Shown here piece by piece: positions 10,463 to 49,266 of a stretch of DNA of 64,000 bases; positions within the stretch are counted from its first letter, which is position 1, and every line of letters begins with the position of its first letter. The stretch is taken from positions 1,798,001 through 1,862,000 of the forward strand of contig NZ_JAUFQQ010000005.1 of NCBI RefSeq assembly GCF_030409845.1, written 5' to 3'. The notes beneath the pieces were generated by a model. It was not told the DNA's origin. It saw nothing but the letters and a program-made list of their open reading frames with translations, and made no database searches. A program made the translations under genes and the position numbers. This DNA is from Flavobacterium branchiarum. GTDB taxonomy: Bacteria; Bacteroidota; Bacteroidia; Flavobacteriales; Flavobacteriaceae.

Positions 10463-10555
10463 TCCTAGCCCTGATAGAAGCGGAAATCCTTGCCCTTTTT
10501 TCTTTAAAAAGGACAAGATTGAAGCGCATAGCAGGTAAAAGCTCCTAGAAATAGG
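10463..10555 (+). repeat. Dispersed structured repeat, copy A
   Basis: One of three related blocks in the window (others at 12576-12662 and 36351-36420). The shared skeleton is tagccc-n-gatag, then an ATCCTT...AAGAT hairpin, then gcggatagc-type sequence, ending gctcctaa. The hairpin here pairs CTTGcCCTTTTT with AAAAAGGaCAAG. Stem bases differ between copies but pairing is kept. There is no coding potential. A rare, probably mobile or RNA-forming intergenic element is inferred. Confidence 0.6.
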
Positions 10556-12575: not shown

Positions 12576-12662
12576 TTTTAGCCCAGATAGGAACGGCATC
12601 CTTTGCTTGCCTTCTTTAGGCAAGTAAAGATAAAGTGGATAGCTGGAAATTGCTCCTAATAA
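12576..12662 (+). repeat. Dispersed structured repeat, copy B
   Basis: Same skeleton as copies A and C: tagcccagatagga, then a hairpin in which CTTTGCTTGCC faces GGCAAGTAAAG around ttcttta, then agtggatagctgg and gctcctaat. It lies just upstream of the metG promoter. Confidence 0.6.
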
Positions 12663-12772: not shown

Positions 12773-14830
12773 ATGTTACAAAATCCTAAGAGATATACCA
12801 TTACTGCTGCTTTACCTTATACTAACGGACCTATTCATATTGGCCATTTGGCGGGCGTTTACGTGCCTGCTGATATTTATTCTCGCTTTTTACGTATGCA
12901 GGGAAAAGATGTGGCTTTTATTTGTGGAAGTGATGAACATGGTGTGGCTATCTCGATGAAGGCTAAAAAAGAGGGGGTTTCGCCTCAGGAAATTATTGAT
13001 AAATATGACGGAATTATCCGTAAGTCTTTTGAAGATTTTGGAATTTCTTTTAATAATTACTCTAGAACTTCGGCTAAGATTCATCATGATACGGCTTCGG
13101 AGTTTTTTAGAAAACTATACGATAAGGGTGATTTTATTGAGGAAGTAACGGAACAATTATATGATGCAAAAGCGAATCAGTTTCTTGCGGATCGTTTTGT
13201 GGTTGGTACTTGTCCTAAATGTGGTAATGAGGAGGCTTATGGTGACCAATGTGAAAAATGTGGTTCGACGCTGAATGCTACTGATTTGATTAATCCGAAA
13301 TCGACTATTACTGGTGAAACTCCAATACTGAAATCGACTAAACACTGGTTTTTACCTTTGGATAGATATACTGATTTCTTGACGGAATGGATTTTGGTTG
13401 GACATAAGAACGACTGGAAACCGAATGTTTACGGTCAGGTTAAATCTTGGGTTGATGGTGGTCTTGAGCCTCGTGCTGTGACTCGTGACCTTGATTGGGG
13501 AATTGATGTTCCTGTGGATGGTGCCGAGGGAAAGAAACTATATGTTTGGTTTGATGCTCCTATTGGATATATTTCGTCTACTAAGGAATGGGCTGCTCGT
13601 GAAGGTAAAGATTGGGAACCTTATTGGAAGGATGAAGATACTAAGTTGGTTCATTTTATTGGTAAGGATAATATTGTTTTTCACTGTATTATTTTCCCTG
13701 CGATGCTTAAGGCTGAAGGTAGTTATATCTTGCCTGACAATGTTCCAGCTAATGAATTTTTGAATTTGGAAGGAAATAAACTTTCGACTTCTAAAAACTG
13801 GGCTGTTTGGTTGCACGAATATTTGGAAGATTTTCCGGAGAAACAAGATGTCTTGCGTTATGCATTAACTGCCAATGCTCCTGAAACTAAGGATAATGAT
13901 TTTACCTGGAAGGATTTTCAGGCTAGAAACAACAACGAATTGGTTGCCGTTTTTGGTAACTTTATTAATCGTGTTGTGGTTTTGACTAATAAATATTACG
14001 AAGGAATTATTCCGACACCGAATGAATTAACTGAGATTGACCAAGCTACTTTGACGGAATTAAAAGCATATCCTGCTGTTATTTCTAGTTCTGTGGAGCG
14101 TTACAGATTTCGTGAAGCATTGGGCGAATTGATGAATGTTGCTCGTTTAGGAAATAAATACCTTGCTGACGAAGAGCCTTGGAAGGTTATGAAGGATAAT
14201 CCGGAGCGTGTAAAAACTCAAATGTATGTAGCGTTGCAAATTGCGGCTGCATTGAGTGTTTTGTCTGAGCCTTTCCTTCCGTTTACTGCTAGCAAATTAT
14301 CAAGAATTTTGAAAAATGAAGGTAAGCTTGCTTGGAGTGATATTGCTGAAAACTCTGATTTACTTCCTGCTGGTCATCAAATTGGTGAGGCTGAATTGCT
14401 TTTTGCTAAAATTGAGGATGAAGAAATTCAGAGACAAATAGACAAACTAGAAGCTACTAAAACGGCAAACCTTGCTGAGAGTAAACAACCGGAACCACAG
14501 AAAGAATTAATTCAGTTTGAGGATTTCGCTAAAATGGATATTCGCGTTGGAACTATTCTTGAAGCGGAGAAAATGCCTAAAGCAAATAAACTTTTGGTTC
14601 TTAAGGTTGATACTGGAATTGATGTTCGTACGATTGTTTCTGGAATTGCCGAAAGCTTTACGCCTGAAGAAATTATTGGAAAACGTGTTTCGGTTTTAGC
14701 AAACTTAGCTCCTAGAGCTTTACGTGGTGTTGAAAGTCAAGGTATGATCTTGATGACTACAAATGCTGAAGGAAAATTAGTTTTCATAAATCCTGATGCT
14801 GATGCTCCAAATGGAGAAACGGTAAATTAA
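12773..14830 (+). CDS. metG: Methionyl-tRNA synthetase with C-terminal tRNA-binding domain, 685 aa
   Basis: Class I synthetase that charges tRNA-Met in the cytoplasm. Signature HIGH is at residues 22-25 and the KMSKS loop appears as KLSTS at 336-340. A zinc knuckle is formed by CPKC (147-150) and Cys160/Cys163. The anticodon-binding helical domain covers about 390-550. Residues from about 583 ([20 protein letters not shown]) form the OB-fold tRNA-binding domain that helps the enzyme dimerise and hold tRNA. Length and domain order match the long bacterial form. A TAnnTTTG promoter precedes the gene. Confidence 0.98.
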
Positions 14831-14876
14831 CCGAATTCAGGTTGAAGCATTTTCTTACTTATTTAAGTTTTAGTCG

Positions 14877-14885
14877 TATTTTTGT
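14877..14885 (+). promoter_or_regulatory. Candidate -7 box upstream of the structured leader
   Basis: TATTTTTGT fits TAnnTTTG and would start a transcript covering the structured element and the 91-aa gene. No convincing -33 element was identified. Confidence 0.4.
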
Positions 14886-14942
14886 TCCGACAAATTACCT
14901 TACGGAATTCATTCCGAAACTTTAATAAAAGTTAAAATAAAC

Positions 14943-15044
14943 GAACTCTCGTCATGATGACCCTATGGAAACTCGGGAAAATCTATCTGTAAGGATATTT
15001 TGTCACATCTAAAGCGAGAGTTTCGTGCGTTTACTATTTTCGAT
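14943..15044 (+). ncRNA. Structured RNA-like leader element, copy 1
   Basis: Predicted four-helix fold. P1 pairs ACTCTCG (14945-14951) with CGAGAGT (15015-15021), P2 pairs GATG with CATC, one hairpin is capped around ggaaact, and another pairs aAAATcTATC with GGATAtTTT. A second copy at 15369-15476 keeps the same fold with compensatory changes in P1, P2 and the last hairpin. It also keeps the unpaired stretches gtca, taaag and the tail tttcgtg-n-gtttactatttt. The tail runs directly into the start codon of the 91-aa gene, so a cis-acting leader (riboswitch-like or protein-binding) is plausible. I could not assign it to a known RNA class. Confidence 0.55.
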
Positions 15045-15320
15045 ATGACAAAAGAAAATCAAAACACATCACATGAAGATGTAATGCCAGCTGTGGCAAA
15101 CTTCCTTTCTGCCCTTTGGCTTGAAGGAGATTTTAGAAATCAACCAGATTATTTAACCGAAATTTTCGAAATGATCCTGGAATCTGAAATTGGCGACTCT
15201 CTAGAGCTAAGAACTAAAATGATTGGTTGCATAAAAACCAGTCGGATGTTGGCAAAAGCACTTGAGCCTTTTTCGGATGAAGAAATTGGAATGGCTTGTG
15301 AAAAAATTATCAATGCTTAA
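15045..15320 (+). CDS. Uncharacterised small helical protein, 91 aa
   Basis: Not recognised. MTKENQNTSHEDVMPAVANF is followed by amphipathic helices rich in Leu, Glu and Met, with a single Cys, no signal peptide and no membrane segment; the last helix is FSDEEIGMACEKIINA. The size and pattern would suit a small regulator, antitoxin-like or adaptor protein, but that is a guess. The ATG at 15045 directly follows the conserved tail of the structured leader. A longer frame beginning at 15000 would run through that element and is rejected. The gene sits between the two copies of the element and upstream of the RloA/RloB pair. Confidence 0.65.
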   Translation: MTKENQNTSHEDVMPAVANFLSALWLEGDFRNQPDYLTEIFEMILESEIGDSLELRTKMIGCIKTSRMLAKALEPFSDEEIGMACEKIINA

Positions 15321-15368
15321 CATCTCTGTTATAAAGGCTTGAAACTTTTTATAAGTTAACAATAAGCA

Positions 15369-15476
15369 ATTCCCTCGTCAAGGTGCTGGAGCAGGAAACT
15401 GCCCTAAATCTATCCGCAAGGATATTTAGTCACACCTAAAGCGAGGGTTTCGTGTGTTTACTATTTTGGTTTACAT
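15369..15476 (+). ncRNA. Structured RNA-like leader element, copy 2
   Basis: Same four-helix plan as copy 1. P1 is CCCTCG/CGAGGG, P2 is GGTG/CACC, one hairpin has GCAG-gaaa-CTGC, and another pairs TAAATcTATCC with GGATAtTTA around gcaa. The conserved tail tttcgtgtgtttactatttt leads into a 16-codon mini-frame (15475-15525, beginning MKRKDLLLVNFF), which may be only chance. The element ends about 120 nt before the ATPase gene. P1, P2 and hairpin differences from copy 1 are mostly compensatory. Confidence 0.55.
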
Positions 15477-15598
15477 GAAAAGAAAAGATTTACTCTTAGT
15501 TAATTTTTTCGAAAAAATCGATTAATAGTTTTTTATATCTTATTATATTCGTTATTTTACATCAGAAATCTAATTTTTAACGAAAAAATCGTAAAATC

Positions 15599-16963
15599 AT
15601 GCTAATCCGATTTGTTGTCAGTAATTTTATGTCTTTTAAAGACGAAACCGAGTTCAATATGCTTCCTGCAAAGGGAAATGGCTCACGTCAGCTTACAAGT
15701 CATATAAAAAAGACAAAATCTGGTGTTGACGTTTTAAAAACTGCAGCAATATATGGTGCTAACGCGGCAGGAAAAAGTAATCTAATAAAAGCAATTGCAT
15801 TTTTAAAATCTATTGTTGTAAATGATGTAGAACTATTGGTTCCACAAAGCAAAAGATTTAGACTGGAAAAAACCTATATAGACAAGCCTTCAACTTTTAG
15901 AATTGAATATGAATACCAAGGAATCCATTTTGATTATGCTGTAGAAATTTTTAAAGGAGAAATAAAAGAAGAATGGCTTTATTTAATAAACTCTGTAAAA
16001 AAAGATAAAGAAGAACTGTTGTTTAAAAGAAGTAACAACAATGTTGAATTTGGAGAATACTTTACAGACAAAAGCGATTTATCCTTTGCTAAGAAATTTC
16101 TAAAAAAAGAACTTAAAGAAAATGAAACCGTTTTAAATAATTGCTATTTATTATTTGAAAACAATAAAATTCTAGATAAAATTTGCAAAGCATTTTCAAA
16201 ACTTCATTTAGTTTTCCCAAACTCGATAAATATTGATTTTACCAAATCTGTTTTATTAGGTGAAAAAAAACTAGATTTTGCGAATAAAATACTTCTAAGT
16301 AGCAAAACAGGAGTTGAAAAAATTGTGTTGAGAGAGATAGATGCAGATTCGTTTTTTGGTTTAGATGATATAAATACCAAAAACAGTCTTATTGATAAAT
16401 TAGAATCTAGCATTCAAAATAATGATAAGCAAGAAAAGGAAAAAGCAATCGTTTTTGGATATAGAAATAAGTTTTACACTCTTGTAAAAAAAAACAACAA
16501 CTATTTTGTTTTTATGCTATGTGCAAAACATGAAAATTCTGATTTAACGTTTGATTTTCATGAAGAATCCGATGGTACAAATCGTTTATTTGAACTCGCT
16601 CCCGCTTTTGAAGAACTACTATATGAAGATGACTTTGTATATATTATTGATGAACTAGAAAGAAGTATGCACCCATTATTAGCTAAAGAACTCTTAAAAA
16701 TGTTTTCATTAAATTCTAAAACTAATAGTCAATTAATTTTTACCACACATGAAAGTCATCTATTAGACGATAACTTACTACGCAGAGATGAAATATGGTT
16801 TACAGAAAAAAAATCTGATGGTAGTACCGATTTTTATCCTTTAAGCAACTTCAATCCTAGAGGTGATAAAGTCTTAGAAAGAGGGTATTTAGAAGGAAGA
16901 TATGGTGGAATTCCATTTTTAGGTGATTTCTCTAAATTAATTAATGAAGAAAACCCTTTATAA
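15599..16963 (+). CDS. RloA/AbiLi-like AAA-type ATPase, 454 aa
   Basis: SMC/ABC-like ATPase of the RloA type, probable sensor or motor half of a two-gene phage-defence system. It starts MLIRFVVSNFMSFKDETEFN, the standard opening of this family. Walker A GANAAGKS is at 53-60, a signature-like ESDGTNRLFEL at about 323-333, Walker B YIIDELE at 348-354 and the switch-like THES at about 382-385. The central 150 residues are the Lys-rich insertion typical of the family. The stop is directly followed by the ATG of the RloB-like gene, so the two are translationally coupled. AT-rich composition fits an acquired module. Confidence 0.85.
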   Translation: MLIRFVVSNFMSFKDETEFNMLPAKGNGSRQLTSHIKKTKSGVDVLKTAAIYGANAAGKSNLIKAIAFLKSIVVNDVELLVPQSKRFRLEKTYIDKPSTFRIEYEYQGIHFDYAVEIFKGEIKEEWLYLINSVKKDKEELLFKRSNNNVEFGEYFTDKSDLSFAKKFLKKELKENETVLNNCYLLFENNKILDKICKAFSKLHLVFPNSINIDFTKSVLLGEKKLDFANKILLSSKTGVEKIVLREIDADSFFGLDDINTKNSLIDKLESSIQNNDKQEKEKAIVFGYRNKFYTLVKKNNNYFVFMLCAKHENSDLTFDFHEESDGTNRLFELAPAFEELLYEDDFVYIIDELERSMHPLLAKELLKMFSLNSKTNSQLIFTTHESHLLDDNLLRRDEIWFTEKKSDGSTDFYPLSNFNPRGDKVLERGYLEGRYGGIPFLGDFSKLINEENPL

Positions 16964-17650
16964 ATGGAGCGTAAAAGATACACATTAGATGATTACAACA
17001 AAAAAGAATCATTTAAAGATGCAACTAGATTCTTTATTGTTTACGAGGGAGAAGACAAAGAACCCAAATATTTCGGAACTTTTAATAATTTATTTTTTGA
17101 ACCAAAAAAAGCAAGTATTTTACATGTTTTTGAAAAAGATACTAATGTTAAAGGTTCTCAACCAAAAAAATTAATAGAGAGGGCAAGATCTTTTATCGAA
17201 AATCCTCCAAAGGACTTACCTATTACTCCATCACAAGATGACAAGTTTAGGTTTGTACTTGATGTCGATCAACATCCAAAAGAAGAATATCCAGAACTAA
17301 AAGAATATTGTAAAAGTCTATTTGATGCTGATTTATTTATAAGTAATTATTGTTTCGAGATATGGCTATTATTTCATTTGGATGAACCAGAAAATATTTT
17401 ATGTAAAACTAGTAAAGAATCTAAAACAGAACTTGGAACAAAACATACGGATTCAAAATTAAAAAACTATCCTAAAGGATATTTAACCATTGAATACATA
17501 TTAAAAGCAATTGAAAGAGCTGAAAAAGCAGATTTAAATCCAGACAATTATTTTCCTGAAGAAAAATCTACTAAAGTATATTTATTAATGAAAGAACTTC
17601 TTAAATACTCAACAATAAATAAAGAAGTAATTAATCTCAAAATAATCTAA
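16964..17650 (+). CDS. RloB/AbiLii-like protein, 228 aa
   Basis: Partner of the preceding ATPase. RloB-domain proteins have a Toprim-like fold and are thought to be nuclease-like effectors. Visible motifs are FFIVYEGEDKEPKYFG (conserved Glu28), RFVLDVDQH with Asp100 and Asp102 (DxD), and SNYCFEIWLLFH at about 127-138, the family's diagnostic segment. The gene starts without a gap after the ATPase stop, and a transporter gene unrelated to defence follows 24 nt later. The ATPase plus RloB arrangement matches the Lactococcus AbiL type and rlo genes of type I restriction loci; here no restriction genes are adjacent. Function as abortive infection is inferred. Confidence 0.85.
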   Translation: MERKRYTLDDYNKKESFKDATRFFIVYEGEDKEPKYFGTFNNLFFEPKKASILHVFEKDTNVKGSQPKKLIERARSFIENPPKDLPITPSQDDKFRFVLDVDQHPKEEYPELKEYCKSLFDADLFISNYCFEIWLLFHLDEPENILCKTSKESKTELGTKHTDSKLKNYPKGYLTIEYILKAIERAEKADLNPDNYFPEEKSTKVYLLMKELLKYSTINKEVINLKII

Positions 17651-36248: not shown

Positions 36249-36350
36249 TTTTTTTCAAACAATTACAAGAAAACATCAGTTGCAAAACTGGTGTTTTTTT
36301 TTGTTTAATACTTTTCTGGAGCAGATCTTTACAACTTTACAAGACCAAAA

Positions 36351-36420
36351 AATCCCGCCATCCGCTTTATCTTTTCCTGCCTAAAGAAGCCAGAAAAAGG
36401 ATACCACTCCTATCGGGGCT
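36351..36420 (-). repeat. Dispersed structured repeat, copy C
   Basis: Third copy of the family at 10463 and 12576, on the opposite strand. In reverse complement: agccccgataggagtgg, then hairpin CTTTTTCTG...GCAGGAAAAG, then agcggatggcggga. Conserved outside the stem and compensated within it. The rest of the 36249-36618 spacer is AT-rich and holds nothing else recognised apart from a hairpin near 36270-36300. Confidence 0.6.
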
Positions 36421-36618
36421 ATCAAAGCACTTTACTACAATTAATTCCCTCTGTTACACTACTACCATTTAAAATAGCATTAAAATACAATTACCCCAAT
36501 TGCCTTCTCCTTCAACTTGATAACAAATAGATTTACCAACTCTCAACTAATCCAACAATCTAGCAACCTATAAATGCATATTTTCTAATTTCCGATTGCC
36601 CGATTGTCTAATTAAGTG

Positions 36619-47835: not shown

Positions 47836-49266
47836 ATGCTTACAAACAAAAAAACCAAAATTGTAGCCACACTTGGCCCTGCATGTGGTACTAGAGAGAT
47901 CATAAAAGACATGATCGAAGCAGGTGTGAACGTATTTAGAGTTAATTTTTCGCATGCAGATTATGAAGGTGTAAAGGAGAAAATCAATATCATTAGAGGA
48001 CTTAACGAAGAGTTTGGCTATACCACAGCTATTCTTGGAGATTTACAAGGTCCTAAACTTCGTGTAGGAGTTATGGAAGAAGGTGTTGTAGTAAACGATG
48101 GTGATATAATCACTTTTACTACTGCTGAAGATATCATCGGTACTGCCAAAAAAGTTTTCATGAAATACCAAAACTTTCCAAATGATGTAAATCCTGGAGA
48201 GCGTATTTTACTTGATGACGGAAAACTTATTTTTGAAATCCTTACAACAGACAAAAAATCTGAGGTTACTGCTGTAGTTATTCAAGGTGGTGAACTAAAG
48301 TCTAAAAAAGGAGTTAATCTTCCTAATACAAAAATATCTTTACCTGCATTAACTGAGAAAGATATTGCTGATGCCATTTTTGCTATTGAACAAAAAGTAG
48401 ATTGGATCGCTCTTTCATTTGTAAAAACACCACGTGACTTACAAGACTTACAAGAGTTGATTGCAAAACACTCAGATGTTAAAATTCCAATCGTTGCAAA
48501 AATCGAAATGCCTGAAGCATTAGAGAACATGGATAAGATTGTTGCTTATTGCGACGCTCTAATGGTTGCTCGTGGAGATTTAGGAGTTGAACTTCCTGCT
48601 CACGAAGTACCATTAGTTCAAAAAGAATTAATCCGTAGAGCTAAAACTGCTCGTATTCCAGTAATCGTTGCAACACAAATGATGGAAACAATGATCACTA
48701 GCTTAACACCTACACGTGCTGAAGTAAATGACGTTGCTAACTCTGTTATGGATGGTGCTGATGCTGTAATGCTTTCTGGTGAAACTGCTGCAGGAAATTA
48801 TCCTGTTCAAGTTATCCAAAAAATGACACAAATTATCGAAGCAGTTGAAGACTCTCCGCTAATTCATGTTCCACAAAACACACCACAAATTAAAACAAAA
48901 CGTTTTATTACTAAAACAATTTGTCAGCAAGCGGCTATTATGGCTAATACTATAAAAGCTAAAGCAATTTGTACACTTACAAATAGCGGTTATACTGCTT
49001 TCCAAATTTCGGCTTGGAGACCATCTGCTCATATTTTAGTATTTACTTCAAACAAAAGAATCTTAACTCAATTGAGTCTTTTATGGGGAGTTAAATCTTA
49101 TTACTATGACAAAGATGTAAGTACAGACGACACTGTAATTGATGTGAATCAAATCGTAAAAGATAAAGGATATGTTGTAAAAGGTGATTACTTAATCAAC
49201 TTAGCAGCAATGCCTATTAAAGACAAAGGAATGGTTAACACCGTGAGAGTTTCAGAAATAGAATAA
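47836..49266 (+). CDS. pyk: Pyruvate kinase, 476 aa
   Basis: Last step of glycolysis, phosphoenolpyruvate plus ADP to pyruvate plus ATP. It starts KKTKIVATLGPACGTREII. The active-site region is IPIVAKIEMPEALENMDKIV (Lys and Glu for metal and phosphate), then DALMVARGDLGVELPAHEVP, QMMETMITSLTPTRAEVNDV and MLSGETAAGNYPV. The C-terminal allosteric domain is present from about 350. Full length. Confidence 0.97.
   Translation: MLTNKKTKIVATLGPACGTREIIKDMIEAGVNVFRVNFSHADYEGVKEKINIIRGLNEEFGYTTAILGDLQGPKLRVGVMEEGVVVNDGDIITFTTAEDIIGTAKKVFMKYQNFPNDVNPGERILLDDGKLIFEILTTDKKSEVTAVVIQGGELKSKKGVNLPNTKISLPALTEKDIADAIFAIEQKVDWIALSFVKTPRDLQDLQELIAKHSDVKIPIVAKIEMPEALENMDKIVAYCDALMVARGDLGVELPAHEVPLVQKELIRRAKTARIPVIVATQMMETMITSLTPTRAEVNDVANSVMDGADAVMLSGETAAGNYPVQVIQKMTQIIEAVEDSPLIHVPQNTPQIKTKRFITKTICQQAAIMANTIKAKAICTLTNSGYTAFQISAWRPSAHILVFTSNKRILTQLSLLWGVKSYYYDKDVSTDDTVIDVNQIVKDKGYVVKGDYLINLAAMPIKDKGMVNTVRVSEIE

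Follow-up and report, generated by a model that had tools for sequence, protein, structure and literature searches.

Two c4-2-like RNAs beside a small gene of Flavobacterium branchiarum and a candidate antisense switch of the phage P1 c4 type

Among the closest described systems is the c4 RNA of phage P1 (RF01695, with the leader element c4-a1b1, RF03163). In the excerpts of PMC5320573 devoted to it, c4 is processed by RNase P to about 77 nt and binds target mRNAs, with its b' segment partly covering ribosome-binding sites, and the excerpted text of PMC8198154 states that full repression of ant needs c4. The P1 annotation lists promoters, a1 (48255) and b1 (48269), both marked putative, the c4 RNA (48343-48419), a2 (48423), b2 (48452), icd (48470; 73 aa), and ant. 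The a' segment of P1 (CTGTCAA) lies between the last hairpin and the 3' strand of helix P2, and b' is placed likewise, as in the RNAs described below. A match to Rfam isrK overlaps the a1b1 region of P1 (L197 48230-48311) at 35 bits, below the cut-off of 50. Heteroimmune P1 and P7 differ by a few bases in the target-specifying region, and of the 21 Group 1 C4-like sRNAs of Acinetobacter baumannii six are truncated (both from the same excerpts, PMC5320573). The Acinetobacter RNAs are many chromosomal copies of a phage c4 type with a variable target loop, as here; the excerpts assign them no cognate targets (PMC5320573), whereas full Flavobacterium copies carry leader and gene targets that covary with the RNA.

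Rfam places C4 in clan CL00128 together with a second family, c4-2 (RF02944), typing C4 as antisense and c4-2 as sRNA only. The original description of c4-2 is reportedly a 2017 survey. No report of c4-2 targets was found in the passages searched, those of PMC2864571 among them, though the original description may mention one. The same literature yielded no paper on an antisense RNA in a Flavobacterium phage.

Two c4-2-like RNAs around a 91-aa gene

Within the window (the whole 64,000-nt stretch that was analyzed), two copies of a structured RNA flank a 91-aa gene, at the places given by the first-pass annotation:

12773..14830, + strand: metG, lying upstream of the module in this genome as in 16 fetched loci
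14877..14884, + strand: putative promoter -7 element TATTTTTG (TAnnTTTG) of the copy 1 transcript
14889..14905, + strand: leader site a1b1 (GACAAA at 14889-14894 and CCTTACGG at 14898-14905), complementary to the last hairpin
14942..15026, + strand: copy 1, a c4-2-like RNA of subtype B (90.5 bits with model R1, copy 1 being in its training set)
14945-14951 / 15015-15021: helix P1 of copy 1, ACTCTCG/CGAGAGT
14956-14959 / 15006-15009: helix P2 of copy 1, GATG/CATC
14984-14997: last hairpin (P4) of copy 1
14998..15004, + strand: a' of copy 1, TTTTGTC, which complements a1 (14889) and, if extended by one base, a2 (15046-15053)
15045..15053, + strand: a2, the start codon with codons 2-3, ATGACAAAA, complementary to a'
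15045..15320, + strand: the 91-aa gene, family S91, predicted four-helix protein
15366..15453, + strand: copy 2, a c4-2-like RNA (38.2 bits with RF02944; 93.2 bits with R1, copy 2 being in its training set)
15475..15525, + strand: 16-codon ORF after copy 2 (MKRKDLLLVNFFEKID, then stop), whose start mismatches the a' of copy 2 (own-start pairing -2.4 kcal/mol)
15599..17650, + strand: rloA/rloB pair, AbiLi/AbiLii-like, a neighbor outside the RNA module

As the annotation had proposed, copy 1 runs into the start of the 91-aa ORF (the RNA ends 18 nt before the ATG at 15045), and both copies share one fold with compensatory changes in helix P1, helix P2 and the arms of the last hairpin, copy 2 having CCCTCG/CGAGGG in helix P1 and GGTG/CACC in helix P2. 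Its count of two is incomplete, since elsewhere the genome has a third subtype-B copy (C3:1089986) and five canonical ones. R1, a covariance model of subtype B whose 28 training rows include both window copies, finds exactly three places in this genome: copy 1, copy 2, and C3:1089986.

A whole-genome search with copy 2 as the query recovered copy 1 (90% over 62 nt, E 7e-18) and, besides these two, only matches of 18-29 nt. Folded alone, copy 2 is more stable than its shuffles (z -2.97) and copy 1 is not (z -1.08), so the evidence for structure is comparative. When 28 sequences were aligned (26 distinct, both window copies among them), 94.5% of cells pair against a shuffled mean of 81.7%, 12 of 21 pairs show changes on both sides against 7.6, and the covariation score is 0.393 against 0.161; none of 500 shuffles did as well on any of these counts. 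The weakest measure was the number of further pair types (29 against 25.0, equaled by 14 of 500 shuffles). Slid controls brought pairing down to 36-52% of cells. Both copies are real, structured, and under selection.

The element had been described as unassigned, a label that does not hold: the window copies are divergent relatives of Rfam c4-2. Copy 2 matches RF02944 over the full model (1-79; E 1.3e-6) at a score close to, and below, the gathering cut-off of 41 bits, and copy 1 gives no match at E<=5. Fourteen of 20 subtype-B relatives match, 11 at or above the cut-off and three below it, the best at 57.2 bits; the other six give no match at E<=0.01. The c4-2 consensus fold (helix P1, helix P2, tetraloop hairpin, last hairpin) recurs in the window subtype by alignment and covariation, and the third-helix loop is, by eye, of GNRA type. 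We distinguish subtype A, which is canonical c4-2 (76 distinct sequences), from subtype B, the kind found in the window (41 distinct). Subtype B has a longer, closed last hairpin and directs a' to the start codon, whereas canonical c4-2 directs its loop and UAGGA to the region of the ribosome-binding site (RBS). The C4 model RF01695 finds no match in the whole genome at E<=1, and neither R1 nor RF02944 matches phage P1 c4.

The taxonomic reach that follows refers to sampled genomes under strict filters. Among 199 relatives, 25 have RF02944, every one of them in the same genus, with up to eight copies per genome; this genome (G000) has five clear c4-2 copies besides copy 2. An order-wide sample of 296 genomes contained RF02944 in 12, one of them from another family, and R1 matched two of 299 genomes in a family-wide sample, this one and one of another genus.

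Pairing with the leader and with the start of the downstream gene

The a' of subtype B, the 3' strand of the last hairpin, is complementary to a leader site, a1, just after the promoter, and also to a2, which is formed by the start codon and second codon of the small gene downstream. A column-by-column search made with no prior choice of partner placed the leader-a' helix first, ahead of helix P1. Predicted pairing with the leader averages -23.7 kcal/mol against -13.4 when partners are permuted (n = 36), that of a' with the leader -17.9 against -8.8 (n = 33), and that of a' with the start codon region -7.96 against -5.28 (n = 36), none of 10 000 permutations reaching the observed value in any of the three; these permutations treat related sequences as exchangeable, which the disjoint-pair contrasts below correct in part. 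Pairing with the leader is stronger than pairing with the start, where the duplex is short (about 8 bp) and a2 is the only site identified at the gene. The conserved 3' tail that had been noted behind the RNA (GTTTACTATTTT) is accounted for in part: no helix between the tail and the RNA stood out by eye or in a column search, in which the top two helices were leader-a' and helix P1, and the covarying element lies just beyond the tail, in the start codon region.

Five a'/start classes were found (GUC/AUGACA, GC/AUGCAA, AGUC/AUGACU, GAC/AUGUCA, and AGC/AUGCUA), which account for the protein starts MTKEN, MQKEN, MSKEN, and MLKEN. The class of a' is present in all 33 leaders and, at full length, in 33 of 36 start regions. 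The four bases counted from the G of AUG are predicted by a' in 50 of 51 loci, the sole mismatching locus (L042) having ATA where the others have ATG. When loci of different class were paired by RNA-body similarity (distance 0.02-0.28), 20 of 21 disjoint pairs had both partners following the class, which makes shared ancestry alone an unlikely cause. A search with a conserved 5' flank pattern led to 14 viral contigs, 10 of them with the RNA. With four phage records and a locus of another genus, these 10 give 15 further loci (near-copies included; L167-L169 are in the R1 alignment and outside the earlier pairing tests), and in all 15 the start region matches the locus's own a', a result equaled by four of 20 000 permutations. 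The other-genus locus (L186, 45 bits) has GUCAACA in both leader and start and UGUUGAC in the RNA. In 36 of 41 distinct subtype-B loci, TAnnTTTG, which we take to be the promoter -7 element class, has its end 42-59 nt upstream of the RNA match. Pairing of subtype B with its own RBS, considered by analogy with subtype A, was rejected (2633, 4637, and 4291 of 5000 permutations were as good); that test ended at the AUG, and the signal appeared once the first codons were included.

Canonical c4-2 pairs somewhat differently with its gene. Its last-hairpin loop and UAGGA are complementary to the RBS region between the RNA and the AUG, with predicted duplexes of -13.75 kcal/mol against -7.6 when permuted (59 distinct pairs; none of 10 000 permutations as good), and most of the pairs displayed form two-part duplexes. 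The cognate RBS is best or tied for only 19 of the 59 RNAs because many sites are alike, and a few cognates rank near the bottom. Leader pairing is again present in subtype A (-15.1 against -9.9 kcal/mol; n = 46; none of 10 000), at a site just after TAnnTTTG, a motif absent from the 140 nt upstream in 30 of 76 loci. Under a loose rule for ORFs (at least 40 codons, start within 60 nt of the RNA), one stands behind 69 of 76 subtype-A RNAs, usually 72-88 aa long and about 20 nt away, and behind 39 of 41 subtype-B RNAs, the exceptions being copy 2 and one copy in another genome (G096).

Phage P1 has the same order of promoter, a1b1, c4, a2, and small ORF, and an antirepressor-type gene further down, as in some of the Flavobacterium phage loci described below; subtype B departs from P1 in that a2 lies on the AUG itself. 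An a1b1 site and a site at the translation start, two features of P1 c4, are found for subtypes A and B and for copy 1, whose set of elements is complete, not for copy 2.

A proposed antisense switch and its alternatives

Copy 1 is, in our judgment, quite probably an antisense RNA switch of the c4 type. Comparison of the sequences establishes its elements, their order, the three-way covariation, and the recurrence of that order in phages and in phage P1; from these we infer that the RNA is made, released, and repressing, and that the leader tunes repression. Transcription would start after TATTTTTG (14877) and yield, in order, the leader site a1b1, the folded c4-2-like RNA, and the 91-aa mRNA. 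The segments b' and a', in the last hairpin and its 3' flank, would pair with a1b1, and a' also with the AUG and second codon. Whether processed free or acting within the same transcript, the RNA would block translation by pairing with the start region. The leader would serve as a second target, and its pairing with a'b' in cis would open the RNA fold. For copy 1, the predicted duplexes are -23.8 kcal/mol for a'b' with the leader, where the match carries mismatches, and -7.8 kcal/mol for a' with the start. For the full transcript (14887-15060), the favored predicted structure puts the leader on a'b' (-34.2 kcal/mol) and opens the c4-like fold. Since the leader can pair with a'b' in cis in this way, the transcript may be bistable.

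The same prediction would suit a purely cis-acting leader, in which the alternation between the a1b1/a'b' fold and the c4-like fold sets translation and no free RNA is involved; the excess of leader pairing over start pairing fits it as well. Against it, phage P1 c4 is reported in the excerpted source to be processed and to bind target mRNAs (PMC5320573), and orphan copies that lack a leader or a gene (copy 2, its G096 counterpart, and a tandem pair at C3:1118694) stay foldable. We regard this explanation as improbable. The position of the RNA, ending 18 nt before a start codon, would also be natural for a metabolite riboswitch or for a site at which the 91-aa protein regulates its own synthesis, and subtype B does stand mostly before one protein family, of which a 103-aa phage protein is maybe a distant relative. 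What speaks for antisense pairing over either is that the covarying partners are the RNA's own leader and the start codon: the variable last hairpin and a' change together with the leader and with codon 2. Moreover, canonical c4-2 precedes proteins without detectable likeness (77-aa versus 82-aa), and 12 of 50 S91 ORFs have no RNA, so that a riboswitch or protein site is highly unlikely here. Of the options raised at the outset (a cis-regulatory RNA, a protein-binding site, or a small RNA), a regulatory RNA is supported and the protein site is disfavored by the covariation with leader and start codon. Finally, with up to eight RF02944 copies per genome the element could be taken for a dispersed repeat or mobile element without RNA function, a notion made barely credible by the recurring promoter-leader-RNA-gene order and by compensatory changes both within and between elements.

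For c4-2, to which Rfam assigns no target, the antisense switch would supply a definite and testable targeting rule. Switches of the phage P1 c4 type would then be present in a further phylum, in phages and as numerous chromosomal copies, each with its own specificity. By this simple rule, codon 2 of the gene and the transcript's 5' end can be predicted from a few bases of the RNA, which makes the role of chromosomal c4-like RNAs, including any guarding against phages, directly testable. It would also mean that codon 2 can be fixed by the RNA rather than by the protein.

Phages, orphan copies, and neighboring genes

Eight Flavobacterium phage records have a relative of a 109-aa ORF, and four of them were examined (2A, FPSV-D35, 1H, and FPSV-F7; Unahavirus). 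In all four, a subtype-B RNA and an ORF of the 103-aa type (phrog_33690 in 2A) lie a short way ahead of the tape measure gene or of a large structural gene; of these phages, RF02944 detects just 1H. Phage 1H has class GACT, and 2A and FPSV-D35 both have GCAA, yet differ in leader and last hairpin. Like heteroimmune P1 and P7, these related Flavobacterium phages differ at this one place. A distant relationship of the 103-aa protein to S91 is possible (hhalign probability 48%). A single peptide pattern found no S91 member in viral contigs, nor did the phage records hold one, but two viral contigs found by a DNA pattern (L180 and L181) encode S91 members (E 1e-17 and 1e-15 to members from bacterial genomes) in the place of the phage small ORF, and two prophage-like loci (L164 and L165) encode S91 members as well. 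Antirepressor-type proteins with KilA-N or P22_AR_N domains occur in L181, L126, L164, and L165, their genes lying between the small ORFs and an ORF judged tape-measure-like by its N-terminus. No antirepressor was recognized at the window locus, where the next genes are rloA, rloB, and EamA. The place before the tape measure gene led us to consider the phage ORFs as tail-chaperone candidates. In eight loci (L167-L170, L172, L175, L176, and L184) a phage ORF of 183-188 aa overlaps the 103-aa ORF; the L181 homologue covers only its C-terminal part, and the true start may accordingly be internal.

S91 is present in 26 of 248 relatives, and the 91-aa protein has its nearest named relatives in Flavobacterium. 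Behind a subtype-B RNA stands either an S91 gene or another small ORF, and 38 of 50 S91 ORFs in wide loci have the RNA. Of the 12 without it, 11 lie at or near an XRE regulator (L128, L129, L130, L134, L142, L145, L148, L153, L155, L158, and L160), and several have another kind of leader in common. The 91-aa protein belongs to no NCBIfam or PADLOC family and has no Pfam match at E<=0.001; Pfam Dpoe2NT (17 bits, E 0.008, 26 residues, under the cut-off of 24) and phrog_30020 (weak, E 0.05) were set aside. Its AlphaFold model has four helices (pLDDT 81, pTM 0.61) and matches no structure of BFVD or PDB at E<=0.001; the model of the 77-aa family has three helices. The all-helical character of these small proteins is held with moderate confidence, as it comes from predicted models. 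Profiles show no likeness between the 91-aa and 77-aa families, and no relation of the small proteins to Icd, which reportedly affects growth or division, was detectable.

Copy 2 had been noted to precede the RloA/RloB pair, and it does end about 145 nt before rloA. A link with that pair finds no support among relatives: the RNA precedes the 91-aa gene, behind metG, in all 16 fetched metG loci (with EamA further on in 12), and none of the 16 encodes a RloA/RloB relative, so that RloAB is probably an insertion rather than the regulated gene. Because the RNA or the 91-aa gene served to retrieve these loci, empty sites would not appear among them. The best PADLOC scores of RloA and RloB are to AbiLi (6e-84) and AbiLii (4e-21).

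The a' of copy 2 (TTTAGTC, 15425-15431) is of class AGUC. No TAnnTTTG occurs in the 80 nt upstream of copy 2 and no GACTAAA, its expected a1, within 14801-15620, and it pairs poorly with its own surroundings (-4.6 and -2.4 kcal/mol). Copy 2, which lacks promoter, a1, and ORF, is either a relic or a trans-acting orphan that matches phage 1H in specificity. Orphan RNAs recur: G096 has the same layout of RNA, S91, and RNA without an ORF, the last hairpin of its second copy differing and still pairing by eye, and at C3:1118694 and 1118794 (L067 3695-3872) this genome has two canonical c4-2 RNAs in tandem, of different specificities, lacking an ORF and followed by a terminator-like hairpin, which are candidates for free-standing trans-acting RNAs. 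A search for a chromosomal target of copy 2 through GACTAAATATCC gave exact matches only in copy 2 and at C3:1522500, and no enrichment when one mismatch was allowed (29 places, versus 42 with the reversed control).

It is conceivable, though we consider it rather unlikely, that chromosomal c4-2-like RNAs, above all orphans like copy 2, silence incoming Flavobacterium phages of the matching class in trans. The copy 2 hairpin is complementary to the leader of phage 1H over 12 consecutive bases (-15.0 kcal/mol) and pairs with its start codon at -7.9 kcal/mol; 1H is the best of 15 phage and related loci for copy 2, a set in which it is counted twice, and the next best leader reaches -12.5 kcal/mol. 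If such silencing occurs, phage classes would diversify under the pressure of RNA immunity.

In the stretch from copy 2 to rloA, CGAAAAAATCG was seen by eye twice in direct orientation, at about 15507 and 15577, perhaps an operator or an insertion scar. The window also contains three Flavo-1 RNAs (RF01705), at 10463-10542, 12576-12653, and 36347-36424.
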